Shown: positions 6,659 through 32,162 of the stretch, piece after piece
How positions within the stretch are numbered: position 1 is the stretch's first letter
How the letters are laid out: the number at the start of each line of letters is the position of its first letter
Assembly: GCF_002154695.1 (NCBI RefSeq)
Contig: NZ_MTAV01000033.1
Coordinates: forward strand, 1-62,191
Origin: Nostoc sp. T09
GTDB lineage: Bacteria; Cyanobacteriota; Cyanobacteriia; Cyanobacteriales; Nostocaceae
Direction: 5' to 3'
Length of the DNA stretch: 62,191 nucleotides
Made by a program: the position numbers and the translations under genes
Notes under the pieces: model-generated
The model's database searches: none
The model's input: only the letters and a program-made list of their open reading frames with translations
What the model was told of the DNA's origin: nothing

Positions 6659-7168
6659 ATGGCAAAAAAGAAACGACCCAAAGAGCATATTATAGCAGAT
6701 TTAAGCGTAAATCATGTTGAAAAATACGTGTTTTTATGTGGTTATTCAGTAGAGCGAGTTGAATATGACTATGGTTTTGATTTAATTATCTTTACATATG
6801 GTGTAAATAGTGAAATTGAAAATGGTCAGATCTATCTACAGTTAAAGGCTAGAGATTCTCTTAGAACACTTGCAGACCAAGAAACTATTGCTTTTACAAT
6901 AGCGCGAGCAGATTTAGAATTGTGGTTGTTTGAGCCTATGCCCTGTATTCTGATTGTATATGATGCTCAGTTGGATATAGCTTATTAGTTATACTTACAA
7001 GCGTATTTTGAAAATTTGCCAGGGTTTGACCTATCCAAACTTGGTGAAAGTGTTACTGTTCGCTTGCCTAAAACAAATATACTAAATCAAGAGGCAATCA
7101 AAAAATTCGCTGATTATCGGAATTATGTTCTCAAGCAGCTAAAAGGAGTAATTCGTCATAATGATTAG
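6659..7168 (+). pseudogene. DUF4365-type gene interrupted by an in-frame amber codon
   Basis: The frame begins at ATG 6659 and encodes the DUF4365 pattern (RPKEHIIADLSVNHVEKYV, YDYGFDLIIFTY, IYLQLKARDS, which resemble a restriction-endonuclease-like fold with D and Q-x-K). A TAG at 6986-6988 stops it at 109 residues, yet the same frame continues for another 59 codons with good family sequence (LYLQAYFENLPGFDLSKLG ... FADYRNYVLKQLKG) to TAG 7166-7168. The broken codon fits a Trp (TGG to TAG) in AY-W-LYLQAYFE. The frame end overlaps the next gene by 8 bases, showing that the pair was one unit. Readthrough or sequencing error is possible. Confidence 0.7.
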
Positions 7169-7412
7169 AAATATTCAATTTACTGACCTAGAACAATTAC
7201 TTTTAAAGATAGGTTTTACCAAAGTACCGACAACTGGATCTCAACAAGTTTATCAGTCTTCATCTTCAGGAGCTTTGATCGTTTTACCAGCTTACGAGCA
7301 GCAAGCGTATGTTCAGCCTGTGCATTTGGTAGCTGTACGTCGAGTATTGATAGAAAATGATTTAATCAACACGAATACTTTCGACAGTTTTTTAGAAAAG
7401 GTTGCAAGCTAA
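7161..7412 (+). CDS. HicA-like small protein paired with DUF4365 gene
   Basis: The 83-residue protein has the arrangement of a HicA/YcfA-like double-stranded-RNA-binding-fold: LEQLLLKIGFTKVPTTGSQQ, then a beta-strand ALIVLPAYE and a helix VRRVLIENDLI. The catalytic His of HicA (usually GSHh) is replaced by Gln in GSQQV, so RNase activity is doubtful. It overlaps the end of the DUF4365 frame by 8 bp, so translation is probably coupled. The combination recurs in cyanobacteria to my knowledge but has no established function; a toxin-antitoxin or defence role is inference. Confidence 0.6.
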   Translation: MIRNIQFTDLEQLLLKIGFTKVPTTGSQQVYQSSSSGALIVLPAYEQQAYVQPVHLVAVRRVLIENDLINTNTFDSFLEKVAS

Positions 7413-7427
7413 AGTGGGAAAACTTAA

Positions 7428-8591
7428 TTAAGTTGAGTATTTACCGTTAATTTCTACGTAACCTTCTGAAAGATCACAACCCCATACAGTTGCGACAGCC
7501 TCGCCAATATTGAGGCTAACATGAATATTTACTTTATCCTTAGACATAACTTGTCGCAACTGTTCCAAATTTTCCTCATCTAAAATATTAGGATAGACTT
7601 TAACTTTATCAAACCTGATTACAACATCTTCTGGATTGATTGCTAGTTCATTTTCACATTTGCCTATAGCCATAGCTACTCTTCCCCAATTCGGATCTGC
7701 GCCATAGACAGCAGTCTTAACCAAAGGTGAATTTACAATAACTTTAGCAACTCGTTTAGCTTGTGTATAATTCAAAGCCGAATCTACAGTTACTTCAATT
7801 ACTTTAGTAGCACCTTCACCATCTCGTGCAATTTTTAGAACTAATTCATGGGCTATTTCTTGCAATGCGCTAGCAAATTCTTGTTCTGAAACTTCGCCTG
7901 CTAAACCATTAGCCAAAATGATGGCAGTGTCACTTGTAGAAGTATCGGTGTCGATACTTAGGCAATTAAATGTTTTATCTACTGTAGAACGGAAAATTGA
8001 ACGCAGCGCATCAGCAGAAATCGCCGCATCTGTAAAAAAGAAAGCTAGCATTGTCGCCATATTTGGCTCAATCATACCAACACCTTTGGCAATTCCTACT
8101 AGTTTGGCATTTCCAACTTGTCGCGCCGCTAGCTTAGGTACAGTATCGGTTGTCATAATACCGCGTGCTGCCAAATTAAAATCAGCCGCAGTTAATTTCG
8201 TCCCAATTCCTAACAATCCTGTACGGATTTTTTCTATAGGGTAACGTCTACCAATTACGCCTGTGGAAGCTATCACAATATTGTGTGGAGAAATATCCGT
8301 TTCAGTTGCTACAAGTTGAATAACTTCTTTTGCATCAGCAGTACCAATGGCACCATTAGCTACATTTGCATTTTTAGATATAACAACAATTCCCTGCGCT
8401 TGATGATCTTTTAGGTGCTGGCGGCTAATAGTCACACTTGGCCCAGCAAAAAGACTTTGTGTAAATACTCCATCAGCAACACAAGGAACATCCGATTTAA
8501 TCAATACAAAATCGTTAGTAGTGTCCTTGATGCCTAAGTTAGTAATAAACGTACTAAATCCTTGAGGAGTTGAAGATGGAGTTAATGACAT
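7428..8591 (-). CDS. ArgJ-family ornithine/glutamate N-acetyltransferase paralogue
   Basis: The protein is an Ntn-fold ArgJ relative. The self-cleavage and nucleophile site is intact (KGVGMIEPNMATM, Thr180) and so is the oxyanion hole (STGVIG, T110-G111); C-terminal DPNWGRVAMAIG is also typical. At 387 aa it is shorter than usual ArgJ (~405-415) and its N-terminus diverges. Classical ArgJ moves acetyl from N-acetylornithine to glutamate. The position as last gene of an operon with a flavoprotein, ferredoxin, GNAT and methyltransferase rather than with arginine genes suggests a paralogue acting on a different acylated amino acid, as for clavulanate-cluster OAT2; that is inference. Confidence 0.85.
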   Translation of the reverse strand: MSLTPSSTPQGFSTFITNLGIKDTTNDFVLIKSDVPCVADGVFTQSLFAGPSVTISRQHLKDHQAQGIVVISKNANVANGAIGTADAKEVIQLVATETDISPHNIVIASTGVIGRRYPIEKIRTGLLGIGTKLTAADFNLAARGIMTTDTVPKLAARQVGNAKLVGIAKGVGMIEPNMATMLAFFFTDAAISADALRSIFRSTVDKTFNCLSIDTDTSTSDTAIILANGLAGEVSEQEFASALQEIAHELVLKIARDGEGATKVIEVTVDSALNYTQAKRVAKVIVNSPLVKTAVYGADPNWGRVAMAIGKCENELAINPEDVVIRFDKVKVYPNILDEENLEQLRQVMSKDKVNIHVSLNIGEAVATVWGCDLSEGYVEINGKYST

Positions 8592-8731
8592 TTGTTATAT
8601 AAAACTCTTATAATTGCGTGATTTTATACTAAATTTAGTTTAGCGATCGCCTTTTTAAGGCTCTCATTTTTTAGCAAAAATTAATATCTTTGTAAAATAG
8701 GCATTCCCCACCATACTATATTTTGTCTACT

Positions 8732-8959
8732 TTACCGTAACAAAAAAGGAATTTGCACTGTAATGGCATTTGTCGGACATTCCTTTTCACAAGGTAGACA
8801 AAACCAGCATTCGTCATATTTCATATATGCTTTTCCTGTTTCCGGATTTTTCGCTAATACATCGAGCGGACAAACTTCGATGCAAGCTACACATTTTTCT
8901 AAACATTTAGATTCATCCACAATCACAGGAACATCTACTCTTTGATTAATTAAAGCCAT
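8732..8959 (-). CDS. Two-[4Fe-4S] ferredoxin, AprB-like partner of the flavoprotein
   Basis: The 75 residues carry eight cysteines in two cluster motifs: C19-x3-C23-x2-C26-x3-C30-P and C51-x2-C54-x2-C57-x3-C61-P. The first motif with three residues between the first two Cys and the Trp next to C51 (ECWFCLPC) resemble the iron-sulfur subunit of adenylylsulfate reductases, but the C-terminal tail of AprB is missing. It likely carries electrons to or from the AprA-like flavoprotein encoded 1.4 kb upstream in the same operon. A GAGGT Shine-Dalgarno lies before ATG 8959. Confidence 0.85.
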   Translation of the reverse strand: MALINQRVDVPVIVDESKCLEKCVACIEVCPLDVLAKNPETGKAYMKYDECWFCLPCEKECPTNAITVQIPFLLR

Positions 8960-8989
8960 ATCATACCTCTAGGTTTATTAGTTTATGTG

Positions 8990-9772
8990 CTAGTTTGCAA
9001 TCGATGCTTTAAAAAAACGGTAACCCACATCAATTTCTGTTAACTGGCGAATCTCTCCATATTTTTTATCCCATTCACCACTACTCAAATCTGCTGCAAG
9101 AGATTTAACACCAGATTCAATTAAATTAGGATTCCCTAAAGCAAAAGAAGATATTCCCGCACGCACTTCTGGCTGAAGATACAATTCAGGTCGCCTCCAA
9201 GCTGCTGCGGCAAATAAATCAGATAAATCGTAGGGTAACATCAAAGGTATTACTTCAATAATCCTTTGAGTATTCTTCTCAATCAAATTTGTAATTTCAT
9301 TAACTGGAAGAAATTTTAGTGCATCTTCCCACAACCAAGGGAAATAATCATACAGCCAGATTTTCTGAGCAAATCTAATATCAAAACTTAACAATATAAT
9401 TGCCCCACCTTTAATAATCCGATGCATTTCCTGAAAAGATTTCTCTAAATCGGAAAAATGATGAATTGTTAAAATACTAATTACCCCATCAACAGATTTA
9501 TCAGGTAAAGGTAAAGCTTCTGCATATCCAGTCAACCATTTAATTTGGGGATGTTCTGATGCTTGTTTACGCATTACTGATGATGGTTCTATAGCGTAAA
9601 CAGAAAATCCTTGATGAGCCAGCGCTTGAGAATAACCACCAGTACCCGCCCCAATATCAGCAATAATGCTACCTTGCGGTAAATTGAGTAAGTCGATTAT
9701 CTTCTGGACAATTCGCGGATCAGGGACGCGAGTTTTTGTATATTGTTTCCCAATGGAATCATAAAGAGGCAT
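8990..9772 (-). CDS. Class I SAM-dependent methyltransferase
   Basis: A 260-residue UbiE/Methyltransf_11-type enzyme. Motif I is IIADIGAGTGGYSQAL, followed by acidic post-motif YAIEPSSVMR; motif II/III are VDGVISILTIHHF and IIKGGAIILLSFD. The opening YDSIGKQYTKTRVPDPRIV is typical of a family of cyanobacterial and Bacillus methyltransferases of unknown substrate. It lies 30 bp upstream of the ferredoxin gene in the same operon, so the methylated compound may be part of the same pathway. Confidence 0.85.
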   Translation of the reverse strand: MPLYDSIGKQYTKTRVPDPRIVQKIIDLLNLPQGSIIADIGAGTGGYSQALAHQGFSVYAIEPSSVMRKQASEHPQIKWLTGYAEALPLPDKSVDGVISILTIHHFSDLEKSFQEMHRIIKGGAIILLSFDIRFAQKIWLYDYFPWLWEDALKFLPVNEITNLIEKNTQRIIEVIPLMLPYDLSDLFAAAAWRRPELYLQPEVRAGISSFALGNPNLIESGVKSLAADLSSGEWDKKYGEIRQLTEIDVGYRFFKASIAN

Positions 9773-9839
9773 TTGTAAAACACCGAAATTTTAATTAATA
9801 AATGGCTTACAAGTAATTTTCTGTAGGTGGGCATTAAAC

Positions 9840-10292
9840 CTACTCCGAAGCAATTTTTTTATAAAACGTCATTTGCTGTTTTGTATTGGTGTAACCTATT
9901 TTTTTATAAAAAATGTGAGCCTCTGTGCGTTTAATATTAGAACGTACAATAATGCCCTCACATCCAACTAAAGCAGCCCATTCCTCAATATACTGCATTA
10001 ATGTACGTCCAAATCCTGCATGACGATAATCTTCATCCACCACTAATCCAAAAAGTAATGCTTGATTTGGAATAATGATTAAATCACAAGTGTGAGCGTG
10101 TGCCCAACCAATAATATAATCATTTGCTAAGGTAGCAACATAAACAACATGACTTTTGTTATCTTGAATTTGCACAAGACGTTGCTCTATCTGTTGCGAC
10201 GTAGCAGAATATCCAAGCTGATCGCAAAGCACTGCAATTCGCGCTGCATCTTTACCCTCAGCCAATCTAATCTTAATTTTCTCATTGTTCAT
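9840..10292 (-). CDS. GNAT-family N-acetyltransferase
   Basis: The 150-residue protein shows the GNAT fold: IRLAEGKDAARIAVLCDQLG at the start, the beta4 strand LFGLVVDEDYRHAGFGRTLM with the pyrophosphate loop R-x-x-G-F-G, and the late FYKKIGY motif. The ATG at 10292 (MNNEKIKIR) fits the family better than the TTG at 10301. It is inside the flavoprotein-ferredoxin-ArgJ operon. A GNAT and an acetyl-transferring ArgJ relative in one operon suggest protection of an amine by acetylation and later removal; this is inference. Confidence 0.85.
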   Translation of the reverse strand: MNNEKIKIRLAEGKDAARIAVLCDQLGYSATSQQIEQRLVQIQDNKSHVVYVATLANDYIIGWAHAHTCDLIIIPNQALLFGLVVDEDYRHAGFGRTLMQYIEEWAALVGCEGIIVRSNIKRTEAHIFYKKIGYTNTKQQMTFYKKIASE

Positions 10293-10310
10293 TAGCAACA
10301 AATTTCTTAT

Positions 10311-10354
10311 TTCTCAGTGCCCCTCTGCGTGAACCTCTGCGCCCCTTTGCGTTT
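10311..10354 (-). repeat. GCAGAGG/CGCAAAG-type simple repeat in operon spacer
   Basis: Read on the minus strand this is a string of CGCAAAGGGGCGCAGAGG-like units, a low-complexity repeat found widely between genes in filamentous cyanobacteria. A relative occurs at about 24174-24216 (CGCAAAGACACAAAGGACAC) and a degenerate one near 49915-49960. It sits between the flavoprotein and GNAT genes, in the 113-bp gap of the operon. Confidence 0.5.
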
Positions 10355-10405
10355 AAAAATGAAATCAAATATTAAAATTTTAGCCTTAATTTACTGACTA
10401 TGAGT

Positions 10406-12115
10406 TTATTTCACCGCCACATCATAAACCTCTCTTCCTAAATCCACATCCACAATATAAGGTTCAACATCACGCTTAAATAACACCATTTCTTCTGCTT
10501 CATTCTTTCTCAAATTCACATGACAAAACCATTCTTGGTTATTCTTCTCTGGAAAATCTAAATGATAGTGATAAAGTCCCCACCGGCTTTCTCGGCGATA
10601 TATTGATGCTCGTGCAGCCATCTCTGCACAATCTCTAATAAAATGCACCTCCATACAGCGCATGAGTTCGTGAGGATCGTGCGCTCCCATGTGGGCCAAC
10701 GTATCATGATAACGAACAAAATTATTCAGTCCAATCTCCATTTTGTAATTTGATTTTGGCGGTTGTAAGTAGTCATTCACTAGTCGCCGCAACTTATATT
10801 CAACTTGAGTATGGGGAATTCCACTCGGCTGATTTAAAGGTGCATAAATCCTTGCTTTTTCTGCTGCCAAAAACTCAGGATCGGGTTCCAAATGATCCAA
10901 ATCTTGGATGTATTCAATCGCATGAGTTCCTGCCAAACGACCAAATACAAACGCTCCAATCATATAATTGTGGGGAACACTTGCCATATCTCCGGCTGCA
11001 TACAATCCTGGTACTGTGGTTTCTGCCTTTTCATTTACCCAAACACCAGAAGCACTATGTCCACTACACAAGCCAATTTCGGAGATATTCATCTCAATAC
11101 CATGAGTGCGGTAGTCTTCGCCTCTACCTTCGTGAAAGCGTCCCCGGCTCGGTCGTTCATTTGCCCATAAAATAGACTCAATTTCGGAAATAGTATCTTC
11201 ATCCAAATGAGTCATTTTCAACTGAATTGGCCCTTTACCAGAGTTCAATTCTTTCCAAATCTCTAGCATCATTTGACCACTCCAGTAATCACAATTAATG
11301 AAGCGGTGTCCTTCTGCGTTGGCGGTATATGCGCCAAAAGGCCCAGCAACATAAGCACAAGCCGGGCCGTTGTAGTCTTTAATCAAGGGGTTGATTTGGA
11401 AGCATTCAATGTTACTCAATTCTGCTCCCGCGTGGTAAGCCATTGAGTAACCATCGCCAGCATTAGTGGGGTTTTCATAAGTGCCGTAGAGGTAGCCTGA
11501 TGCAGGTAATCCTAATCGCCCACAGGCCCCTGTGCAAAGAATTACGGCTTTGGCTTGGATAACAACAAAATCGCCACCGCGCACATCAAAACCAACTGCA
11601 CCGATCGCTCTTCCTTCTTTTACCAAAACCCTTGTCGCCATGACGCGGTTGGTAACATTGACTTTATGGCGCTTTACCTGTCGGGTAAGAATCGTTTTTA
11701 GATCTTTACCTTCTGGCATTGGCAATACATATTTGCCTACCCGATGCACTTGCTTGAGATCGTAATTTCCTTGGGGGTCTTTTTGGAACTTAACACCCCA
11801 ACTTTCTAGTTCTTGAATGGTTTCATAGCCTAGCTTTGCGGTTTGGTAGACAGCTTTTTGATGAACGATACCATCATTAGCAATCGTGACTTCGCGTACA
11901 TACTGTTCTGGCGTAGAGTGTCCGGGAATGACTGCTGTATTCACGCCATCCATTCCCATTGCGATCGCACCACTCCGACGAATATTAGCCTTCTCCAAAA
12001 TCAGCACTTCTGCCTCTGGATTAGCCTGTTTCGCCTTAATTCCCGCCATCGTCCCCGCCGTACCGCCGCCAATCACTAGTACATCGGTTTTTATCCATTG
12101 GGTACTTGTTTCCAT
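10406..12115 (-). CDS. AprA/fumarate-reductase-type FAD-dependent oxidoreductase
   Basis: About 569 residues of the fumarate reductase/succinate dehydrogenase/AprA flavoprotein superfamily. The dinucleotide site is TDVLVIGGGTAGTMAG (residues 10-25); the FAD-contacting RRSGAIAMGMDGVN is closer to adenylylsulfate reductase alpha (RSGAVAQGL) than to SdhA. The C-terminal FAD region is VPGLYAAGDMASVPHNYMIG. ATG 12115 is chosen because AGGTG lies 7-8 bp upstream; a longer in-frame version from 12151 has no such site. A binding-protein gene precedes it and an AprB-like ferredoxin follows, so this is probably a two-component flavin/Fe-S redox enzyme on an imported substrate. Function as true APS reductase is unlikely because the genomic context lacks Sat/Qmo genes. 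Confidence 0.85.
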   Translation of the reverse strand: METSTQWIKTDVLVIGGGTAGTMAGIKAKQANPEAEVLILEKANIRRSGAIAMGMDGVNTAVIPGHSTPEQYVREVTIANDGIVHQKAVYQTAKLGYETIQELESWGVKFQKDPQGNYDLKQVHRVGKYVLPMPEGKDLKTILTRQVKRHKVNVTNRVMATRVLVKEGRAIGAVGFDVRGGDFVVIQAKAVILCTGACGRLGLPASGYLYGTYENPTNAGDGYSMAYHAGAELSNIECFQINPLIKDYNGPACAYVAGPFGAYTANAEGHRFINCDYWSGQMMLEIWKELNSGKGPIQLKMTHLDEDTISEIESILWANERPSRGRFHEGRGEDYRTHGIEMNISEIGLCSGHSASGVWVNEKAETTVPGLYAAGDMASVPHNYMIGAFVFGRLAGTHAIEYIQDLDHLEPDPEFLAAEKARIYAPLNQPSGIPHTQVEYKLRRLVNDYLQPPKSNYKMEIGLNNFVRYHDTLAHMGAHDPHELMRCMEVHFIRDCAEMAARASIYRRESRWGLYHYHLDFPEKNNQEWFCHVNLRKNEAEEMVLFKRDVEPYIVDVDLGREVYDVAVK

Positions 12116-12195
12116 ATAATCACCTGAGTTAAATATCGGAAAAGGGGGCAAGGGGGAAAGGGTAAAGGAGAATGCCAGATGACAAATGACAAAAA

Positions 12196-13284
12196 CTACT
12201 TATTTCCTTGCCAAATTATGTCCTTCACATTAATTTGTTTTGGTATAAGTTTGATTTTGTAGAAAGCATCAGCAACCTCTTGCTGTTTCGCAATCACTTC
12301 ATCGGTAATTGGAAGCACGCCATAATCACGCCGCTTTTCTGCTAACTCTAAAACAGCAGCATCAATACCCAATGCAGGCGAGAGGAATTTAGCAACTTCG
12401 GTGGGATTACTCTTAGCCCAGTCACTAGTCTTTTTCACTTCATCTAGAACTATTTTCAAAGTGTCAGGATGTGCTTCGACAAAAGACTTGGCAGCAAGAT
12501 AATAACCACGATTCGGTGCTAATCCTGTTGCATCAGTTAAAGTGCGTGCGCCTGTTGCTTTCTCTGCTACGGCTAAATATGGGTCCCAAATTGCCCAAGC
12601 ATCAACGTTTTTACCTTCAAAAGCAGCACGCGCATCGGAAGGCTGGAGAGTAACTGCTTGGATGTCAGTATATTGTAGTCCGGCTTTTTCCAGTGCTTTT
12701 ACTATTAGGTAATTAGTGTTTGAACCTTTAGCAAAGGCAACTTTTTTACCTTTGAGATCCGCCACTGTTTTAATCGGTGAATCTTTAGGAACAAGGATAG
12801 CTTCAGCCTTTGGACTCCAGGGATCGTAAGCCACATAAACTAAAGGCGTACCTGCGGCTTGAGCAAATATTGGCGGTGATTCTCCTGTGTAGCCAAAGTC
12901 TATACTGCCAGAGTTGATGGCTTCTAACATTGGCGGCCCTGATGGAAATTCACTCCAAGTTACAGAAGCACCAGAAGCTGCCAAAGCTTTTTCTAACTCC
13001 CCTTTTGTTTTCAATGCACTTAAAATAGTTCCCGCTTTCTGGAAGCCAATCCTAACAGTATTACTACTAGTTGCTGAACTCTGATTAGGTGTTGTTGTTG
13101 CCTGTTCTGTAGGTGTTGTTGTTGCTTGCTGGTTTGCGTTTGAAGAACAAGCTGAAACAAATAAAACTAAGCCAAGCCCAACTGCAAACAGTAAAGAAAA
13201 AATCCGTATTCTTCTCTGTTTAAAGTTTTGGAGAAAGCCGATAGAAATGTTTAATATTCGAGATTGTAAGAGCTTGGACAACAT
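12196..13284 (-). CDS. SsuA/TauA-type ABC substrate-binding lipoprotein (copy 1)
   Basis: A NMT1/SsuA-like periplasmic binding protein. The N-terminal IRIFSLLFAVGLGLVLF ends in the lipobox VSAC, so it is anchored by a lipid; a Thr/Gln/Pro linker follows. The ligand-binding core carries RIGFQKAGTIL, GSIDFGYTGESPPIFAQAAG, VKDSP-like LVPKDSPIKTVADLKGKK and WAIWDPYLAVAEK, all SsuA hallmarks. The ATG at 13284 is preferred over the GTG at 13311. It begins the operon that continues into the AprA-like flavoprotein, so the ligand is probably that enzyme's substrate or a precursor. No permease gene is adjacent. Aliphatic sulfonate, taurine, or another small anion are candidates. Confidence 0.85.
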   Translation of the reverse strand: MLSKLLQSRILNISIGFLQNFKQRRIRIFSLLFAVGLGLVLFVSACSSNANQQATTTPTEQATTTPNQSSATSSNTVRIGFQKAGTILSALKTKGELEKALAASGASVTWSEFPSGPPMLEAINSGSIDFGYTGESPPIFAQAAGTPLVYVAYDPWSPKAEAILVPKDSPIKTVADLKGKKVAFAKGSNTNYLIVKALEKAGLQYTDIQAVTLQPSDARAAFEGKNVDAWAIWDPYLAVAEKATGARTLTDATGLAPNRGYYLAAKSFVEAHPDTLKIVLDEVKKTSDWAKSNPTEVAKFLSPALGIDAAVLELAEKRRDYGVLPITDEVIAKQQEVADAFYKIKLIPKQINVKDIIWQGNK

Positions 13285-16989: not shown

Positions 16990-18177
16990 TCACGAATACT
17001 GAGTAACAATTGGTAACTCTTGATTGAGTAACCAATTACCAATGTGATTGAGTTTGTAATCGACTGGATCGTGGAGGGTAAAAGTTCGCAAGTCTCGCCA
17101 GTAGCGGTCAAAGCCGTATTTACTAGCTGTGGATCTGGTTCCTGTAACTTCAAAAATGCCGTTGCTGATATCTAATCCCACACGGGTAACAAAGGCTTTG
17201 GCTGAGAAAACGGCGATCGCCACTTCTCCTCTTTCCTCAAAAGTTAAGTCAGATCCTTTGTCCCAAGCTTGTTGAACTTGGGCGGCGGTGCGATCGCTCA
17301 AAGCAATGGCGGCTTGCAGTTCTGCCCAAAATTCACCATAATGCCGCAGAATATAGGGGTCTTTGCTGGCGCTGTCTACTCCAGAGGTAATCCAAGGTCT
17401 GGTTTGAGTTTTCGTGTACTCTTTAGCCGCAGCTAATGCACCTTCTGCAATCCCTAAATAAATGTAGGTTTTGGTTAATTGAGCGATGATTCCCAAAAAT
17501 GTAGCAAAACCACTATCAGAAGGATGAGGATATCCCAGGATTTCATCTTTTTTTACCAAGACATCATGAAAGGTGAATGTATCGCTATCTGTGCGTCGCT
17601 GTCCGATATTATCCCAATCTTGGTTAGAAACTACCCCTGGTCTGTCTTTAGGAATGACAAACAACCAGGGCGCTTCTACACCATCCTGAAGGGCAGAGAA
17701 GACACGCAAATCTGCGATCGCTACACCAGTACCAAAACTTTTTGCGCCATCTACGCGGAAATTTTCGCCATCGGGGGTAATTTTCAGCCTGGTATCTCGC
17801 GTATTAATGGCATTTGCCCAAAAGAGATTTTTCTCGGCTGTTTGGCGGTAATATCTTTCTTTTTGCTCTGGTGTGCCAGAAACATGAGCTAAAGTTGTTA
17901 AGTTCAGATGATTGCCATACAACTGCCCAATAGAACCATCTGCTGTTGAGAGTTGTTGAATCACCTTAAAAGCTTCTGCCCAAGTTGCACCTGTACCACC
18001 ATATTCTTTTGGTACGACCAAAGGTAATAAGCCACTTTCCCGCAGCCGTTGAATTTCTATATCGGGAAGTCCAGCTTTTTGGTCTCTTTCCACTGCGGTT
18101 GCTGTCAGTTCCGCCGCCAAGGAAGATGCGATTGCAATCCAATCTTGGGATTCTTCTTTAACTAATAGTTGTACCAT
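16990..18177 (-). CDS. Acyl-CoA-dehydrogenase-fold flavin enzyme, DszC/SfnB-like
   Basis: The 395-residue protein has the acyl-CoA dehydrogenase fold (N-terminal helical part to ~110, beta domain to ~215, C-terminal helices). Typical points are LPLVVPKEYGGTGATWAEAF, the FMN/FAD contact GAKSFGTGVAIADL, and the C-terminal RSTASKYGFDRYWRDLRTFTLHD split in two. That last segment is found in FMNH2-dependent monooxygenases such as DszC and the sulfur-acquisition oxidoreductases (SfnB/SfnC) rather than in true acyl-CoA dehydrogenases, whose catalytic Glu is missing. Together with the SsuB-type ATPase 24 bp upstream, a role in cleaving an organosulfur compound is the best guess. It would need a flavin reductase. 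Confidence 0.8.
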   Translation of the reverse strand: MVQLLVKEESQDWIAIASSLAAELTATAVERDQKAGLPDIEIQRLRESGLLPLVVPKEYGGTGATWAEAFKVIQQLSTADGSIGQLYGNHLNLTTLAHVSGTPEQKERYYRQTAEKNLFWANAINTRDTRLKITPDGENFRVDGAKSFGTGVAIADLRVFSALQDGVEAPWLFVIPKDRPGVVSNQDWDNIGQRRTDSDTFTFHDVLVKKDEILGYPHPSDSGFATFLGIIAQLTKTYIYLGIAEGALAAAKEYTKTQTRPWITSGVDSASKDPYILRHYGEFWAELQAAIALSDRTAAQVQQAWDKGSDLTFEERGEVAIAVFSAKAFVTRVGLDISNGIFEVTGTRSTASKYGFDRYWRDLRTFTLHDPVDYKLNHIGNWLLNQELPIVTQYS

Positions 18178-18201
18178 TGCTCGTCTTAATTACGAATTTT
18201 G

Positions 18202-18993
18202 CTAAGCTGCTTCTGAATTGAGTGCATAAGAAGAGCGATCGCTCTCTTGCTTCGTCATTACCCGTTCTAAAATTGCCTCAACTGTCTTCGCAAACTCTGC
18301 ATTTCCTCTAGAACGAGGACGAGGAAAATCAATCTTGACATCCAGACCAATTTGACCATCTTCAATCACCACTACTCGGTCTGCTAAAACTACGGCTTCT
18401 TCCACATCATGGGTAATTAACAGTGCCGTAAATTGCTGTTCCTGCCATAAATTCTCTAATAATTGCTGCATTTCAATGCGTGTTAATGCATCCAACGCTC
18501 CTAGAGGTTCATCTAGCAGCAATAAAGAAGGTTGACTCGTCAAGGCTCTAGCTAGCGCCACCCGTTGGCGTTGCCCACCAGAGAGAACGGCAGGCCACTC
18601 ATTCGCGCGGTCTTCTAATCCCACTGCCCGCAGCACTTGTAAAGCTCTCTGTTTTGGATAAACTTTAGAATTAGAACCCAGTAATCCCAGTTCCACATTT
18701 GCTAACACTCGCTGCCAAGGCAGAAGTCGAGCATCTTGAAACATCATTCTGATGGTGGGATTAATCTGCTGGTGAGATTGTTGGTCATTCAAAAACACAC
18801 CACCTGCACTCGGTGCATCTAAGCCTGCGATTAGGCGTAGCATAGTACTCTTACCACACCCACTACGACCAACAATAGCCACAAATTCGCCCGGTTTAAT
18901 TTCTAAATCAATATTTTGCAGAACTGTTTTTGTTCCAAAAGATTTACTCAGCCCTGACAATTTCAAGTGCATTCCATGTGTTTTCAATGCCAT
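18202..18993 (-). CDS. SsuB/TauB-type ABC transporter ATPase
   Basis: A 263-residue nitrate/sulfonate/taurine-type ATPase. Walker A is [10 protein letters not shown]-loop [11 protein letters not shown] (the DARLLPW form is a hallmark of SsuB/TauB/NrtD), signature [15 protein letters not shown], Walker [13 protein letters not shown] and H-loop [11 protein letters not shown] near-perfect Shine-Dalgarno (AGGAGGT) lies about 8 bp before ATG 18993. It starts the operon of DszC-like, O-methyltransferase and SDR genes. No permease (SsuC) gene occurs in the window, so it must pair with one elsewhere or be an orphan. Confidence 0.88.
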
Positions 18994-19873: not shown

Positions 19874-20947
19874 GTGGTGAATTCTTTAAAAAAGCATAAC
19901 TTTCGCGCTCAGCAAGTGTATTCTGCCAGTAGTTTTTTGGTTGCGGTCTCATGTCTAAGTTTGATGGTTACTGGTTGCAGTCAAAAAACAGCAGTTAATC
20001 CCCCAGCTAACTCAAATTCTGCCTCACAAGTTGTCAGTAGTAATCAAAATCCAGAAAAAAGCAACGCAGTTCGCTTGGGATACCAAAAAGGCGGGATTAT
20101 TCCCATCTCACGTCAGCGCGGCAACCTAGAACGTCAGCTATCAGCTCAAAATATTCAAGTTGAATGGACTGGGCCATTTGACCGTTGTGCAACGTTGCTA
20201 GCGGCTCTTAATGGTAATCGTGCAGACATTGGTGGTTGCGGTGATATTCCTACCATCTCCGGGATTGCTTCTGGACAGCCACTTTGTATTGGTTCTGTAC
20301 AGCGTCCTCAACCAGATTCTTTAAGTAGTGCCATCTTAGTTCGCGGTGATTCTTCTATTCGTAAACCTGCTGATTTAGTCGGTAAAAAAGTTGCAGTTAA
20401 TCAAGGGGGCGCAGGTGAATACCTGTTATTAAAAGTCTTAGAAACAGAAAATATCCCTAAAGAGAAAGTCCAGCGAGTTTATTTATCGCCAAATGATGCT
20501 GCACCAGCGCTTTACCAAGGATCTGTTGATGGTTGGGCAGTTTGGGAACCTTATATTTCCATTGCAGAACTAGAACATCAGGCGCGGAGAATCACCACTA
20601 CGCACCCTGCACCTACCTACGGCATTATGGTTGTGCGAAGTGATGCTGCTAAAGACAATCCTGTAGCAGTTAAATCTGCACTGACAGCGTTGAGCCAAGA
20701 TGGTGAATGGCTGAATCAGCATAGCGATGCAGCCGCAGATTTTATGGTAAAAGAGCTAAAAGTTTCGGAAGCTGTAGCCAAGCAAGCCACTAAGAATCGT
20801 GGCCCAGAGTCTTACGTCTTTCCCAATGCAGATGATATTGGCAAGCTTCAGAAAACAGCTGATTGGTTACTAGAGCAAAAAATTCTTCCTAAACGAGTAG
20901 ATATTGCAGCTTCGGTGTGTCCGTTAGGAACTACTGCGGCGAGGTAG
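19874..20947 (+). CDS. SsuA/TauA-type ABC substrate-binding lipoprotein (copy 2)
   Basis: A 357-residue lipoprotein: hydrophobic segment FLVAVSCLSLMVTGC with lipobox VTGC, then a polar linker. The core has the SsuA features RLGYQKGGIIPISRQRGNLE, GNRADIGGCGDIPTISGIAS, ILVRGDSSIRKPADLVGKK and GWAVWEPYISIAELE. It differs clearly from copy 1 and copy 3, so it is not a recent duplicate. GTG 19874 is the likely start; an ATG two bases earlier is in a frame that stops immediately. The cysteine-dioxygenase-like and aldolase genes follow on the same strand, which hints at a ligand metabolised by them. Confidence 0.85.
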   Translation: MVNSLKKHNFRAQQVYSASSFLVAVSCLSLMVTGCSQKTAVNPPANSNSASQVVSSNQNPEKSNAVRLGYQKGGIIPISRQRGNLERQLSAQNIQVEWTGPFDRCATLLAALNGNRADIGGCGDIPTISGIASGQPLCIGSVQRPQPDSLSSAILVRGDSSIRKPADLVGKKVAVNQGGAGEYLLLKVLETENIPKEKVQRVYLSPNDAAPALYQGSVDGWAVWEPYISIAELEHQARRITTTHPAPTYGIMVVRSDAAKDNPVAVKSALTALSQDGEWLNQHSDAAADFMVKELKVSEAVAKQATKNRGPESYVFPNADDIGKLQKTADWLLEQKILPKRVDIAASVCPLGTTAAR

Positions 20948-21054: not shown

Positions 21055-21702
21055 ATGACTCATACAACTATTCTCCAATCCTTAGAAACAGATGAATGGT
21101 TTATTGATAGTCCAGACTTACGTGAGTTTGTGGCGATCGCCAAACAAATTATCTCTAACACAACTCGCGATCGCAAACAAACCCTCAATACCCTAGAACC
21201 CCATTTTGCCGCACTCCTGAAAAAACAAGATTGGTTAACAGAGGAATTCGCCCAACCAAATCACCATAGCGGCTTGGGGGGTGGAATTGGGCAATGGTTG
21301 CTGTATCGTTCTCAGGATCGTTCTCTTACTATCTTTAGTTTGGTGATTCCGCCTAATTCCATAACTCCTGTCCACGACCATTTATCTTGGGGACTTGTAG
21401 GTTTGTATAAAGGCAGACAAGAAGAAACTGTCTACCGTCGCCTAGATAAAGGTGATGTAGAAGGAAGCGCCCAGTTACAAAGTCTCGGTGTCTATAAAGT
21501 AAAAAGTGGTGATATTTACCATCTGTTACCGCCTGACGGTGATATTCACTCTGTGAAGGCTACAACAGTCTTTACTCCTTCCATTTCCATTCATGTCATG
21601 GGGAATGATACTGGTAATATTTTACGCAACCACTATCACCCAGAACAAGAAACTGTCAGGTCTTTTCGCTCTGGATATTCCAACGCACCATTTAAGGAAT
21701 AA
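21055..21702 (+). CDS. Cysteine-dioxygenase-family cupin
   Basis: A 215-residue double-stranded beta-helix protein of the cysteine dioxygenase type I family. The iron ligands are expected in PVHDHLSWGLVGLYKGRQEE (two His in HDH) and a late His in GDIHSVKA. The Cys-Tyr cofactor of mammalian CDO is not present (Gly follows the position), as in many bacterial thiol dioxygenases acting on 3-mercaptopropionate or other thiols. It would oxidise a thiol to a sulfinate using iron and oxygen. It lies between binding-protein copies 2 and 3 with an aldolase 10 bp downstream, which supports an organosulfur role for the block. Confidence 0.8.
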   Translation: MTHTTILQSLETDEWFIDSPDLREFVAIAKQIISNTTRDRKQTLNTLEPHFAALLKKQDWLTEEFAQPNHHSGLGGGIGQWLLYRSQDRSLTIFSLVIPPNSITPVHDHLSWGLVGLYKGRQEETVYRRLDKGDVEGSAQLQSLGVYKVKSGDIYHLLPPDGDIHSVKATTVFTPSISIHVMGNDTGNILRNHYHPEQETVRSFRSGYSNAPFKE

Positions 21703-21712
21703 AAGGAAAACC

Positions 21713-22474
21713 ATGCCGAGATACGATAGACCCCAACCACCAGTTTTTGAACGAGTCGAAGAAGAACGCCTCCACCGCAAACAACGCCTGGCTGCTGCAT
21801 TTCGCCTATTTGCTCGTTTTGGCTTTAGTGAAGGTATCGCAGGTCATATTACTGCCCGCGACCCAGAATTTACTGACCATTTTTGGGTAAATCCTCTAGG
21901 AACATACTTCGGTCATATCCGTGTGTCTGACCTAATTTTAGTTGACACAGAAGGCGAGGTTGTTAAAGGAGATGCTGCCGTCAACCGCGCCGCCTTTGCT
22001 ATTCATTCCCAAGTTCATGAAGCACGACCTGATGTAGTTGCAGCTGCACACGCCCATTCACTGCATGGTAAATCTTGGTCAAGTCTAGGTCGTCTACTAG
22101 ACCCCTTAACTCAAGATGCTTGTGCTTTTTATCAAGACCACACCATATTTGATGACTATAAGGGTGTAGTTCTAGATACCTCTGAAGGTAAAAGAATTGC
22201 TGAAGCATTAGGAGATAAAAAAGCTGTCATTCTGCGGAATCACGGCTTTTTGACAGTAGGAAGAACAGTAGACGAAGCGGCTTGGTGGTATATAAGTTTC
22301 GAGCGTTCAGCTCAAGCTCAACTTTTAGCAGAAGCAGCAGGTAAACCGATTTCCATTGACCATGAAATTGCTACTTTAACCCATAGCCAAGTTGGAACTC
22401 ATGCGGCTGGCTGGTTTAGTTTCCAACCTCTCTACAACAGGATTGTGCGCGAAGAACCAGATTTGTTGGAATAG
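21713..22474 (+). CDS. Class II aldolase/adducin-family protein
   Basis: A 253-residue protein of the FucA/AraD/adducin head fold. Zinc ligands fit AAHAHSLHGKSWSS (His-x-His) and a later His in VILRNHGFLTVG; the SEGIAGHITARDPE start is a typical family opening. ATG 21713 follows AAAGGAAAA and comes 10 bp after the cupin gene, so the two are cotranscribed. Class II aldolases cleave or epimerise sugar phosphates, but this subgroup (first residues RYDRPQPPVFE, 250-260 aa) is widespread with no assigned substrate. It is probably soluble and zinc dependent. Confidence 0.85.
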   Translation: MPRYDRPQPPVFERVEEERLHRKQRLAAAFRLFARFGFSEGIAGHITARDPEFTDHFWVNPLGTYFGHIRVSDLILVDTEGEVVKGDAAVNRAAFAIHSQVHEARPDVVAAAHAHSLHGKSWSSLGRLLDPLTQDACAFYQDHTIFDDYKGVVLDTSEGKRIAEALGDKKAVILRNHGFLTVGRTVDEAAWWYISFERSAQAQLLAEAAGKPISIDHEIATLTHSQVGTHAAGWFSFQPLYNRIVREEPDLLE

Positions 22475-22560: not shown

Positions 22561-23637
22561 GTGTATACCAAGCGGCTGCGTCAAAATTTTATCTTCCCTG
22601 TGGGTTACTTGTTGAGTTTAACAACAGTAGCTTGTTCAGAGGTTAATTCTACTAGTCCGGCTAGTCCGGTCAGTTCTGTTAGTTCATCCATTCCGGCAAT
22701 TACTGCCGCTAACCCTACCCCAACTGGCACAACAGCTTTAAATTCAACTGATTTGCGTGTTGCCAAATACAAAGGTGGTTGGGACTTAAATTTAAAATTA
22801 GCTGGGCTGGATAATTTCTCCTACAAAACTCAGTTTACTGAATTTACTGGGGGTAATTTGATGGTGCAGGCAATTAATGCTGGTGCAATTGATCTAGCCT
22901 CAGCTAGTGAAATTCCGCCGATTTTTGCTCTTGAATCCAAGGCATCTGTAAAAATTATTGCCTCCACTAAAGGGCCTACAGTTGGTCAAGTTGTACTCAT
23001 ACCCAAGAACTCGGCAGCAAAAACGATCGCGGATCTTAAAGGTAAAAAGGTAGGTTATGTTAAAGCCACGACTGCCCACTACTTCCTAATCAAGATGTTA
23101 GAGAAAGTCGGACTCACGATGAAAGACATCAACGCAGTTCCTCTTTCAATACCCGATGGGCTTTCTGCTTTTCGCAAAGGCGATCTAGATGCTTGGGCTA
23201 CCTATGGTTACTCAATTGGGCAAGCACAAAAAGAAGGGGCGCGGGTACTGGAATCTGCCAAAGATATTTTAAGCGGTAACTTTGTGATTATTGCAGCGCC
23301 GAATGCGATCGCCGATCCCCAAAAAAAAGTCGCTATCGCAGATTTTCTCTGCCGCTTGCAAAAGTCACAAAACTGGCGGGAATCTAATCTCAAACAGTGG
23401 TCTAAAAGTTATGCAACTGCTATCAATGTTGATGAAGGCATTGTTTACAAGGATGCCCAGGAAGGACAACAACAACGTCCCCAAAAATTACTTCCTGTGT
23501 CTCAAGAGGCGATCTCATCTCAGCAAAAAGTTGCTGATACATTTTTCAAAGCAGGCGTAATTCCTACTAAAGTTGATGTCAAGCCACTTTGGGACAACAC
23601 ATTTAACGAAGATATCGCCAAATGTAATAGAGGCTAG
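22561..23637 (+). CDS. SsuA/TauA-type ABC substrate-binding lipoprotein (copy 3)
   Basis: A 358-residue lipoprotein: LLSLTTVAC lipobox, then a Ser/Pro/Thr-rich linker (TSPASPVSSVSSSIPA). The core shows GGNLMVQAINAGAIDLASAS, EIPPIFALES, LIPKNSAAKTIADLKGKKV and DAWATYGYSIGQAQKEG, as in SsuA/NMT1-like proteins. It starts with GTG at 22561. It follows the aldolase by 86 bp and ends the plus-strand group. The distinct sequence from copies 1 and 2 suggests a different ligand. No permease or ATPase is next to it. Confidence 0.85.
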   Translation: MYTKRLRQNFIFPVGYLLSLTTVACSEVNSTSPASPVSSVSSSIPAITAANPTPTGTTALNSTDLRVAKYKGGWDLNLKLAGLDNFSYKTQFTEFTGGNLMVQAINAGAIDLASASEIPPIFALESKASVKIIASTKGPTVGQVVLIPKNSAAKTIADLKGKKVGYVKATTAHYFLIKMLEKVGLTMKDINAVPLSIPDGLSAFRKGDLDAWATYGYSIGQAQKEGARVLESAKDILSGNFVIIAAPNAIADPQKKVAIADFLCRLQKSQNWRESNLKQWSKSYATAINVDEGIVYKDAQEGQQQRPQKLLPVSQEAISSQQKVADTFFKAGVIPTKVDVKPLWDNTFNEDIAKCNRG

Positions 23638-25691: not shown

Positions 25692-26064
25692 CAATATTTT
25701 CCTTGAGGGACTTGAGCCAATTTTTGGATGAAAAGTTCACTGACTTTGCTACTTTCCCACCGATTACTGAGATACTATTAGAGTGACTTAAATTTAGATA
25801 TTCATAAAGTTAGCATACTTAACATAATCTGACAAGGATGCTGAGGTTGTAGATTAGGTACTTTCTGAGCTTTGCTGAGGTAACTTATCGTAAATTAAAA
25901 GCTTTAAGACTCTCTCTTACAAATTTCTGAGTGCTGGCTTCCGGTGCTTAGACTTTACCCTACAGGAAGCAAGCTACAGTCGGGGTTTAAATCCTCCGCA
26001 GTCGCACCCGCAAAGCGCTGCTTCTGAAAATGGCAAATTTTTGATAACTAACCTTTTCCGAACC
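25692..26064. other. 373-bp divergent spacer with repeat debris
   Basis: This lies between the MFS gene and mrp, so it carries both promoters. About 25937-25970 is a GCTTCC...GGAAGC hairpin and up to 26025 follows CCGCAGTCGCACCCGCAAAG, a piece of a repeat type often seen in Nostoc spacers. No gene is seen. Confidence 0.4.
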
Positions 26065-27147
26065 ATGTCTAACCACGAATCTCCCTTTCAGCATCCAGAA
26101 GATCAGTTAAAACCAGATACTAATTCTCATCAGCAAGAAGTAGTCAAACTTCTGAAACAGGTTATAGAACCTACCTTAAAAAATGACATCGTTAGTTTAG
26201 GAATGGTACGAAATCTCCGTATAGTTGATCAGTATATTTATTTACGGTTATACATTGGTTCTCATCAGCACCAATTACATACAGAAATTCAATCTGTATT
26301 ATCATCTCTATCTTGGTGCAAAAAAACTTATCTTCAAATTTGTACAATTCCTGGTGTTAGAACAACTCTAGCAGTTTCTAGTGGTAAAGGTGGCGTAGGC
26401 AAATCAACAACGGCCGTAAATCTAGCCGCAGCCTTAAGATTACAAGGTGCAAAAGTCGGGCTGTTAGATGCTGATGTTTATGGGCCGAATTTACCGCAAA
26501 TGTTAGGTTTAGGCCAAGCTGATATTCAAGTGATTAATACTTCTACAGGGGATAAGTTTTTACCCCTGGAAGTTCAGGGAATAAAACTAATGTCAGTCGG
26601 TTTACTTGTAGAAGCAAATCGCCCTTTGGCGTGGCGAGGCCCTGTGTTGCATAAAATTATCACGCAATTTTTACAAGACGTGGAATGGGGCGAATTGGAT
26701 TATTTATTAATAGATTTACCGCCCGGTACAGGTGATGCTCAAATCACAATTATCCAAGAAAGCCCAATTTGTGGAGTCATTCTAGTGACAACTCCTCAAC
26801 AAGTGGCGATCGCAGATGTACGACGGAATATCAATATGTTTCGCCAAGTCGGTGTTCCTGTCCTTGGCATCATTGAAAATATGAGCTATTTAATCTGTGG
26901 AGATTGTGGTTCACGCACACCAATTTTTGGTAGTGGTGGCGGCGAACAACTGTCCGCAGAATTACAAGCACCTCTGTTGGGGCAAATCCCCATTGATCCT
27001 GATATTTGTAGCGGTGGTGATACTGGAAACCCGATCGCCATTGGCTTCGACATAGCCCAAGCGAAGCATCGGACTTCGCCAGCTAGTGAGGTTTTTGCCA
27101 AAATTGCTACTGCAATTAACGCAACTTTTCTGAGGATAGCTGAATAG
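26065..27147 (+). CDS. Mrp/NBP35-family Fe-S cluster carrier ATPase
   Basis: A 360-residue Mrp/ApbC-type P-loop NTPase. An N-terminal DUF59 (MIP18-like) domain covers about residues 20-95 but lacks its conserved Cys. The deviant Walker A is SSGKGGVGKSTTAVN (~104-118), switch DADVYGPNLPQML, and the cluster-binding CxxC is C278-G-D-C281. It binds and hands over 4Fe-4S clusters in the cytoplasm. The ATG at 26065 is preferred to a TTG at 26041. Residues near 327-338 are encoded by a repeat-like stretch (27044-27078) and differ from the normal C-terminus. Confidence 0.88.
   Translation: MSNHESPFQHPEDQLKPDTNSHQQEVVKLLKQVIEPTLKNDIVSLGMVRNLRIVDQYIYLRLYIGSHQHQLHTEIQSVLSSLSWCKKTYLQICTIPGVRTTLAVSSGKGGVGKSTTAVNLAAALRLQGAKVGLLDADVYGPNLPQMLGLGQADIQVINTSTGDKFLPLEVQGIKLMSVGLLVEANRPLAWRGPVLHKIITQFLQDVEWGELDYLLIDLPPGTGDAQITIIQESPICGVILVTTPQQVAIADVRRNINMFRQVGVPVLGIIENMSYLICGDCGSRTPIFGSGGGEQLSAELQAPLLGQIPIDPDICSGGDTGNPIAIGFDIAQAKHRTSPASEVFAKIATAINATFLRIAE
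27044..27078 (+). repeat. Short repeat stretch within the mrp C-terminus
   Basis: The stretch GGCTTCGACATAGCCCAAGC then GAAGCATCGGACTTCGCC resembles the GCGTAGGCATAGCC...GGCATCGC palindromes scattered in this genome type. It encodes about a dozen residues (FDIAQAKHRTS) at a place where other Mrp proteins have a shorter GxPxxxxxP link. Confidence 0.4.
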
Positions 27148-27313: not shown

Positions 27314-28279
27314 TTAAGTCTTCTGCGCGATGCGCTGCTGGAAAATTACGACCAGAAGGAGGAAGCCGCCGCGGAGGACGAGCTGCCACCACGGAGTAAT
27401 CGTCCCTTCGAGATTCAGAAGGTTATACATCATTCCGAGCAAAAGGACACCGGCAAGCGTCGGAAACACGCTCCCTTGCCCTCCTCCGAGAAACGTTCCT
27501 CCCATGACAGCCGCAGCGATCGCATCCGTCTCCCAGCCAAAAGCGGCCACAGGCTGACCCGCCCCTAGACGACCCGCGAGAATAACACCAGCAAGCCCTG
27601 AAAGCAGACCGCTGATTGTGTAGACCGCAAGCTTTACCCGATCCGGGTTCACACCCATGAGCCGGGAGGACTCCTCGTTGTCACCGACAGCGAATATATG
27701 CAACCCTAATAGGCTTCTGTGCAACATAAACCAAGCTGCGAAATACAAAAGCGCAACCATCAGCACAGGGACAGGAACCGGGCCAATGAACCCCCTACCT
27801 AGCCAAACAAGTTCCGAAGCAGCCGATGATATGGCAATCGACTTTTCCTGAGTGATGCTCAATGCCAGCCCACGCGCAGCGCTTGCGGTAAATAAAGTCA
27901 CAACGAATGGCTGGATTCTGGCACGGGACACGAGAAGACCGTTGACCACACCGAGCAAGGTGGTGCTGGCAATACCGCCGGCGATTGCCACAAGGCTTCC
28001 CTGTCCGGCGAGCATTGCGGCGACGACACCGCCTAAAGCAACGAGACCACCCACAGACAAATCAATTCCTCCACTCAGGATCACAACAGTCATGCCCAGC
28101 GCCACGATCGCGAGCATACTGTTCTGTCGCATGATGTTCATCAGGTTAAGCGGTGTCAGAAAGGTTTCATAACGAAACGATGCGAACAGAGCTAAACAAA
28201 AAAGCAGGAGCAGCGCACCCTGCGAGGTAAGTAGCTTCGCAAGCCGCGTACCGACAAGCGCAATCCTTGTGGCAGCCAT
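27314..28279 (-). CDS. yjfF: Sugar ABC permease, YjfF-like
   Basis: A 321-residue permease of the ribose/galactofuranose family (BPD_transp_2) with about eight to ten spans. Signature pieces are ILSGGIDLSVGGLVALGGVV and the loop SRLMGVNPDRVKLAVYTISG, followed by AVMGGTFLGGG. It is the last gene of the four-gene operon 31944-27314, 6 bp after the first permease. E. coli yjfF holds the same place. Base composition is visibly more GC-rich than the flanking cyanobacterial genes. Confidence 0.8.
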   Translation of the reverse strand: MAATRIALVGTRLAKLLTSQGALLLLFCLALFASFRYETFLTPLNLMNIMRQNSMLAIVALGMTVVILSGGIDLSVGGLVALGGVVAAMLAGQGSLVAIAGGIASTTLLGVVNGLLVSRARIQPFVVTLFTASAARGLALSITQEKSIAISSAASELVWLGRGFIGPVPVPVLMVALLYFAAWFMLHRSLLGLHIFAVGDNEESSRLMGVNPDRVKLAVYTISGLLSGLAGVILAGRLGAGQPVAAFGWETDAIAAAVMGGTFLGGGQGSVFPTLAGVLLLGMMYNLLNLEGTITPWWQLVLRGGFLLLVVIFQQRIAQKT

Positions 28280-28284
28280 CCCCG

Positions 28285-30775: not shown

Positions 30776-30987
30776 CGGCTTTACCTGTTTTTGTCCTGAT
30801 TGCCCATAGTGGATATCCTTCACTTCGCACGATAGTAATCTTTGTCTATCGTGGAAGCTCAGGATAATTCCAGGTTATCTTTTCTTTATTTTAGGGCGGG
30901 AACTACTTAGTACTTCACCACATTAATTTTGATGGAAATCTTTCCTCGCTAATCCTCAATGCCCCATGCGCCATGCCCAATAGACCA

Positions 30988-31944: not shown

Positions 31945-32162
31945 ATAGACTCGGACAGCTGAGTATCCAAAACAGGTTTGATTGTTCATAGACCCATTAG
32001 ATCTCCTATCCATCGTGTCTGAGCGCTACTTAGAGCTTATCTTGAAACAAAGACTAGTGATGTGGAAATATCTTTGATGCGATCGCCCCCCAAATATACC
32101 CCAATCACGGCATCTACACCCTGATGCAATCAAACTCCCCAACTGTGCTAAATGCCAAATGA

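Follow-up and report, generated by a model that had tools for sequence, protein, structure and literature searches.

A 62,191-nucleotide stretch of contig NZ_MTAV01000033.1 from Nostoc sp. T09 (the window) carries a reverse-strand gene module built around a flavoprotein that resembles the alpha subunits of adenylylsulfate (APS) reductase, AprA, and of 3'-phosphoadenylylsulfate (PAPS) reductase. Its conserved core consists of this flavoprotein, a two-[4Fe-4S] ferredoxin and a HEAT-repeat protein (Table 1). A role of the module in sulfur metabolism is well supported; the reading we favour, at slightly less than even confidence, is that it scavenges sulfur by means of a ferredoxin-driven flavo-iron-sulfur enzyme that would release sulfite from an imported organosulfonate. 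The family forms an as yet uncharacterised AprAB-type branch that has an active site and a partner of its own, in a role of known type.

Gene neighbourhoods were compared in the 95 loci left after deduplication, 48 of them cyanobacterial and 47 not; they represent the nearest among at least 589 relatives of the flavoprotein. This comparison had been set beforehand as the test of conserved association. The two-cluster ferredoxin was found near the flavoprotein in 90 of the 95 loci and the HEAT-repeat gene in 89, each always on the same strand, and in this survey, run without control loci, both recurred in the same orientation in cyanobacteria, in proteobacteria and on an actinomycete plasmid. 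The association of the core genes is beyond chance. Five of the six loci that lack the HEAT gene (L076, L088, L090, L093, L127) reach a contig end within 1.6 kb of the flavoprotein; the sixth, L060, shows neither ferredoxin nor HEAT in the 5.3 kb available. The sequence-only reading had listed six genes as one functional operon, namely a binding lipoprotein, the flavoprotein, a GNAT acetyltransferase, a methyltransferase, the ferredoxin and an ArgJ paralogue. All six were borne out, on the reverse strand, in their positions and with the families as named, but the list was incomplete, as the HEAT gene, the Mrp/DUF971 genes and the regulators had been overlooked, and the conserved unit is a different one. 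HEAT was a more constant partner of the flavoprotein than GNAT, methyltransferase or ArgJ; association held for the core and failed for the acetyl-handling genes.

Among individual loci, the Dolichospermum/Anabaena loci L058, L059 and L060 have an Mrp gene upstream on the opposite strand, and in L058 and L059 other genes intervene between flavoprotein and HEAT. The Prochlorococcus loci L086 and L087 combine the core with an ATP-binding cassette (ABC) transporter and a YeiH-type exporter; Mrp is present in L086, and L087 stops at the contig end.

The HEAT protein is most likely a physical subunit of the flavoprotein complex, because a single profile spans both proteins and both are fused in Tsukamurella. 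Positions 9–565 of that profile, NF010374 (898 amino acids, aa), match the flavoprotein and positions 609–896 match HEAT, for which it is the best NCBIfam match. In Tsukamurella, flavoprotein and HEAT form one open reading frame of 893 aa, matched by the window flavoprotein (61%) at 12–569 and by the window HEAT protein (34%) at 751–858, and the operon runs in the order GntR, ferredoxin, binding protein, permease, ATPase, fusion. Across 89 aligned HEAT sequences, W208 and W239 each sit in a conserved WQVR-type motif.

By sequence, the solved structure closest to the flavoprotein was the PAPS reductase alpha subunit of Methanothermococcus thermolithotrophicus (8a8o_A, 1e-66), followed by AprA. 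A Foldseek search with an AlphaFold2 model (48 sequences, mean predicted local distance difference test 76.8, predicted TM-score 0.86) returned the same order, with TM-scores of 0.85/0.87 for 8a8o_A and 0.81/0.73 for 1jnr_A. Its Pfam matches, FAD_binding_2 and Succ_DH_flav_C, are those of the succinate dehydrogenase/fumarate reductase (SDH/FRD) superfamily, and its own family is that of NF006131/NF010374, named "fumarate reductase/succinate dehydrogenase flavoprotein subunit". The curated AprA cut-offs were missed (TIGR02061, 185.5 of 641.75 bits; NF005331, 318.6 of 557). Judged by alignment and predicted fold, the architecture is nevertheless AprAB-like.

Residue conservation was assessed in 98 flavoproteins (the 95 loci, the window, Tsukamurella and Acidithiobacillus caldus), with AprA numbered as in A. 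fulgidus and positions counted along the printed alignment. Arg265 of AprA, which we take to be catalytic, is replaced by Leu244 in 98 of 98, and Trp234, Tyr95 and Gly274, which presumably shape the pocket, are replaced by Tyr213, Glu75 and Cys253, each again in all 98; the position of Arg260 is Phe/Tyr239 (92 Phe, 6 Tyr). Asn59, equivalent to Asn74 of the A. fulgidus enzyme, and His353, the His of the M. thermolithotrophicus enzyme, are kept throughout. Seven further residues, H124, H303, R321, R324, H328, C238 and C350, do not vary within the family, and the Ilyobacter reductase taken for contrast has other residues at these positions. Since residues of the nucleotide/sulfite pocket are replaced, APS is probably not the substrate. 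In a profile alignment the His of the SdhA motif QFHP, presumably dicarboxylate-binding, corresponds to Asn242, and the Arg before SIMIEI, which we assume to be catalytic, to Gly280; an SDH/FRD identity was rejected because these SdhA residues are not kept.

In the ferredoxin, eight cysteines, arranged in two four-Cys cluster motifs, and Trp52 are present in 91 of 91 aligned sequences, and Trp52 aligns with the electron-transfer Trp of D. gigas AprB. The protein lacks the C-terminal tail of AprB and stays below the AprB cut-off (TIGR02060, 35.8 of 135.65). The earlier description of the pair as a reduced-size AprA/AprB-type enzyme is thus right about the architecture and the small ferredoxin of 75 aa, and fails at the AprA/AprB cut-offs and at Arg265. 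Its companion claim, that the usual partners in sulfate reduction are missing, stood: tblastn searches with cysC, cysD and cysN (E 1e-5, half of the query covered) gave no match in any of 97 loci.

The sulfur context comes from the genes around the core. Neighbours within the retrieved flanks of the 97 loci were counted as loose clusters (at least 27% identity) with one member per cluster scanned, again without control loci. An SsuD cluster occurred in 16 loci (scanned member 613 bits, cut-off 518), a TauD cluster in 11 (one duplicate pair; 485, cut-off 313) and a DszC/SfnB-like cluster in six, its scanned member below the cut-offs. The shell of a family 2A encapsulin, for which we take "major membrane protein I" to be the old name, was found in seven loci (522 bits, cut-off 380) and the encapsulin's cysteine desulfurase cargo in eight (926, cut-off 800). 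YeiH-type proteins (PF03601) were present in 13 of the 48 cyanobacterial loci, and TauE-type proteins (PF01925) in 8 of these and 1 of the 47 others. The organosulfur setting suggested by the sequence-only reading was therefore confirmed to the extent that sulfonate-use, exporter-type and sulfur-starvation genes neighbour the core in some loci. According to the available text of PMC8049743, sulfur starvation induces the family 2A encapsulin of Synechococcus, and knockout of this protein causes no growth defect; the available text of PMC11423573 gives increases of more than 1000-fold for a cysteine desulfurase, "major membrane protein I" and a serine acetyltransferase when isethionate replaced sulfate in Rhodobacter capsulatus.

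In a sample of 292 genomes of the phylum, 12, including Nostoc sp. T09, encode the flavoprotein family above the cut-off, with a gap of 975 versus 330 bits. It is present in all eight genomes of the genus (at least 94% identity) and single-copy in Nostoc sp. T09, where the other five matches are at most 35% identical. Plasmids account for 54 records at E <1e-40, the lowest-ranked of which include an AprA-type match and fragments; Leptolyngbya sp. BL0902 is one carrier of a plasmid-encoded copy. This patchy distribution fits a mobile accessory nutrient trait. As the Nostoc sp. T09 genome also encodes a CysH-type protein (PF01507) and SsuD, the module probably serves another substrate or condition, which may be, for example, low oxygen.

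Under the favoured reading, an SsuA-type lipoprotein of an ABC system would capture an organosulfur anion, in all likelihood a sulfonate; a binder of this type adjoins the flavoprotein in seven of seven sister genomes. In the cytoplasm, a complex of the FAD protein, the two-cluster ferredoxin and the HEAT partner would draw electrons from reduced ferredoxin, supplied by photosystem I in cyanobacteria and by FdxA plus a reductase in some proteobacteria. Electrons would reach FAD by way of the two [4Fe-4S] clusters and the conserved Trp, and the reduced complex would reductively cleave the bond to the SO3 group. The resulting sulfite would enter cysteine synthesis through sulfite reductase, and any excess may be exported. 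An FAD-sulfite intermediate has been proposed for the PAPS-reductase/AprA enzyme type (available text of PMC10322725).

Several points weigh against this scheme. With the catalytic Arg265 and Trp234 of AprA replaced in all 98 sequences, AprA chemistry is not directly transferable, and the active-site loops are a weak part of the AlphaFold2 model (mean predicted local distance difference test 76.8). Reductive C–S cleavage by such a flavoenzyme would be chemically demanding, and we know of no precedent. The sulfur-source and sulfite-exporter-type genes each occur in a minority of loci, counted without control loci, and near-copies such as L008, L009 and L067 entered the survey as separate loci, while the relatives retained were the best 80 of at least 589. 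Several loci have a longer binder (475–490 aa, one annotated as nitrate-type), and because that of Pseudanabaena scores under the SsuA cut-off (133.6 of 163.5), its ligand could be something else. A literature search that left most subscription journals outside its coverage found no expression, growth or enzyme test of the family.

It is rather improbable, in our judgement, that the complex instead oxidises or dehydrogenates an imported sulfonate, in the manner of SDH or aspartate oxidase, passing electrons to ferredoxin so that sulfite is freed later. The direction is not fixed by the present data, the Pfam domains are those of the SDH/FRD superfamily, and in some Nostoc the GNAT or methyltransferase could act on a product; yet P/APS reductases are closest to the flavoprotein both by sequence and by fold, the aligned SdhA positions (Asn242, Gly280) are not conserved, and the presence of FdxA in 10 of the 97 loci, with a ferredoxin-NADP reductase annotated in L015, suggests electron input. 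The substrate, too, could be a different sulfur oxyanion, one with an S–X bond easier to reduce than C–S, such as a sulfate ester, a sulfamate (N–SO3) or an S-sulfo-thiol (S–SO3), with sulfite still the product. Such a reaction would be closest to the O–SO3 chemistry of APS, sulfite-exporter-type neighbours would suit it, and binders of the SsuA/NrtA kind presumably take small anions; we nevertheless consider it unlikely, as sulfonates are indicated by the window binder, which lies above the SsuA cut-off, and by the SsuD/TauD genes beside the module in some loci. That the protein works as an APS/PAPS reductase in sulfate assimilation is very improbable and was rejected: the fold and subunit pair are indeed shared with the M. 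thermolithotrophicus enzyme, and N59 and H353 are retained, but the AprA positions R265, R260, W234 and Y95 hold L, F/Y, Y and E in every sequence, the AprA/AprB cut-offs are not reached, and the genome already has a CysH-type protein. Moreover, the 97 loci have no cysC, cysD or cysN match, whereas the P/APS-reductase-type pair of Ilyobacter adjoins cysC, cysD and a GTP-binding CysN-like gene.

The remaining question is whether the acetyl-handling genes belong to the system. The sequence-only reading had suggested that an amine is acetylated and deacetylated during the conversion; taken as one pathway, the six genes would also methylate this amine, all in connection with the redox step. The complete set of six is present in the window and in L045, L048, L049 and L050, and two Nostocales clades retain GNAT and methyltransferase in the interval from flavoprotein to ferredoxin. 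In L050 (10766–11217) the GNAT match consists of two overlapping pieces, so this copy may be frameshifted. Across the survey, methyltransferase was found in 15, GNAT in 14 (13 on the same strand) and ArgJ in 5 of the 48 cyanobacterial loci, and none of them in the 47 others, so acetylation is not core chemistry. The core persists in sister genomes whose operon lacks GNAT (L046, L047, L051), methyltransferase (L051) or ArgJ (L046, L047). On the flavoprotein tree, used only for placing these three genes and with an uninformative root because the AprA outgroup branch is very long, only two Nostocales groups carry methyltransferase and ArgJ is limited to the eight-member group that includes the window; GNAT is also present in L054 (Nostoc) and L084 (Nodosilinea). 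The accessories, almost all from Nostocales, are not required for the system elsewhere, the six genes were rejected as a functional unit, and we attach hardly any credence to the single pathway. They may tailor the substrate or a by-product. A second ArgJ gene of the genome, on another contig, is 37.5% identical to the window copy; because both carry ATML, presumably the self-cleavage site, the window gene appears to be an intact paralogue.

Returning to the sulfite-releasing scheme, its nearest known counterpart is the dissimilatory-type PAPS reductase of M. thermolithotrophicus (8A8O), which pairs an FAD alpha subunit with a small two-[4Fe-4S] beta subunit and is the best match of the window flavoprotein in sequence and structure. 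It differs in that the window family has Leu for Arg265, its own invariant H124, H303, R321, R324 and H328, and a HEAT partner; the available text of PMC10322725 describes the reductase as keeping the AprA catalytic residues, differing in the nucleotide-contacting loop and co-occurring with sulfate-activation genes. AprAB shares the flavoprotein-ferredoxin pairing, N59 (N74 in A. fulgidus), H353 and the ferredoxin Trp; in contrast, the window pocket is replaced, the beta subunit has 75 residues against 150–166 in AprB, the cut-offs are missed and cysC/D/N matches are lacking nearby. Plasmid pTcM1 of A. caldus carries a module with the same flavoprotein family in the order GntR-flavoprotein-ferredoxin-HEAT-FdxA. 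Cargo of an A. caldus plasmid was labelled ferredoxin/APS reductase/GntR with an ABC-type sulfonate transporter, and two organosulfonate assimilation operons were predicted (PMC12375680, 2025); this cargo would correspond to the pTcM1 module genes. Searching the main text of that paper for HEAT gave no HEAT-repeat protein, and its section 22 is silent on the active site and the spread of the family.

Sulfonate assimilation as known is mostly oxygen-dependent, SsuD/SsuE and TauD being oxygen-dependent monooxygenase or dioxygenase systems. These fill the same ecological role, and in some loci genes of the SsuD or TauD type lie beside the module, whose own core lacks an oxygenase. Among reductive sulfonate-cleaving enzymes of sulfur assimilation, the literature searched here yielded only the nitrogenase-like Isr of R. 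capsulatus, which shares the oxygen-independent, reductive release of sulfite from a sulfonate sulfur source and has SsuABC in the same locus (available text of PMC11423573). Isr is a NifHDK-like enzyme with a radical-SAM partner, as opposed to a flavin/ferredoxin complex. The same text reports an FAD oxidoreductase, rcc02232, which might belong to the flavoprotein family; it is strongly induced on isethionate and dispensable there. The available text of a NifA RNA-seq paper on Paraburkholderia (PMC8305402) describes a flavoprotein and a sulfonate operon, with no link to the family that could be established, and the available parts of a Gordonia paper (PMC7661421) and of another A. caldus genome paper (PMC3826726) hold nothing on it. 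We tentatively propose, as possible rather than probable, that the family forms a second, flavin-based class of oxygen-independent desulfonase, AprAB-like, ferredoxin-driven, with a new active site and a HEAT subunit, and found in cyanobacteria (including Prochlorococcus), proteobacteria and actinomycetes. If so, a flavoenzyme of this kind, ferredoxin-linked and widespread, would account for how phototrophs and other organisms could use sulfonates without oxygenases, and a misleading database name (fumarate reductase/succinate dehydrogenase) would be replaced. The defined set of flavoprotein, ferredoxin and HEAT protein is directly testable.

Genes for cluster assembly, regulation and electron supply accompany the core in a lineage-dependent manner. 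Mrp lies near it in 36 of the 48 cyanobacterial loci and in none of the 47 others; among the latter, 36 instead carry a DUF971 protein and 38 a GntR/UTRA regulator. Mrp in cyanobacteria, or DUF971 in proteobacteria, probably helps load the Fe-S clusters. A 666-aa regulator with a LysR part, mostly divergent, was found in 18 of 48 cyanobacterial and 2 of 47 other loci. The window's Mrp gene is 84–89% identical to the HEAT-following Mrp of L062, L072–L075, L078, L079, L089 and L007, compared with only 44% to the other Mrp of the genome; among the seven sister genomes none has the window type, the best being a 53% partial match. In L092, L094, L104, L105, L107, L112, L117, L120 and L143, which are proteobacterial and include several sulfur oxidisers, the core is followed by FdxA, by a very large FAD oxidoreductase (1260 aa with Pyr_redox_2 in L117) or by both, perhaps as its electron donor.

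Table 1. Genes of the module and its surroundings in the window.
Gene product	Position	Strand	Evidence	Assigned role
SsuA-type substrate-binding lipoprotein	12196..13284	-	NF008588, 309.5 bits (cut-off 299); TIGR01728, 263.7 (163.5)	probable organosulfonate binder
AprA/PAPS-reductase-like FAD protein, 569 aa	10406..12115	-	NF006131, 1008.3 bits (cut-off 587); PDB 8a8o_A	core enzyme
GNAT acetyltransferase	9840..10292	-	PF00583	accessory in some cyanobacteria only
Class I S-adenosylmethionine (SAM) methyltransferase	8990..9772	-	PF08241	accessory in some cyanobacteria only
Two-[4Fe-4S] ferredoxin, 75 aa	8735..8959	-	eight Cys and Trp52	core, AprB-like electron partner
Second ArgJ (ornithine acetyltransferase)	7428..8591	-	TIGR00120, 357.3 (298); ATML site	accessory of the window's own clade
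HEAT-repeat protein, 320 aa	5584..6546	-	PF13646, 201.8 bits; C-terminal part of NF010374	core partner
Uncharacterised small gene	7161-7412	+		outside the module
DUF4365 gene	6659-6988	+		outside the module
Mrp/NBP35-type Fe-S carrier ATPase	26041..27147	+		module's own kind, displaced 13 kb

Within the module, gaps of 80, 113, 67, 30 and 143 bp separate the genes from binder through flavoprotein, GNAT, methyltransferase and ferredoxin to ArgJ, and this spacing together with the conservation suggests co-transcription. The 22 consensus promoter-like sites counted do not exceed the 23.9 (standard deviation 5.7) of shuffled sequences, and a terminator scan likewise did not exceed chance. Between ArgJ and HEAT the window has 881 bp, holding the two forward-strand genes, against 17 bases (stop codon included) between the matched stretches in sisters L048, L049, L050 and L051. 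In sister L045 only the second of the two small genes was matched, as if a small inserted unit were decaying.

Two permease queries gave no match anywhere in the window at E 1e-5. Elsewhere in the window, a DszC/SfnB-like oxidoreductase gene (368.5 bits to DszC, below cut-off) adjoins an SsuB-like ATPase gene at 16990–18993, forming a second organosulfur-type cluster beside the module, and two more SsuA-family binders (19874–20947 and 22561–23637) lie around a class II aldolase-like gene (21593–22474). Beside the displaced Mrp gene, 27314–32013 holds a sugar-type ABC transporter with two BPD_transp_2 permeases, a double ATPase and Peripla_BP_4, and a gene at 38835–40970 encodes a fusion of a protein kinase domain with TPR and WD40 repeats.

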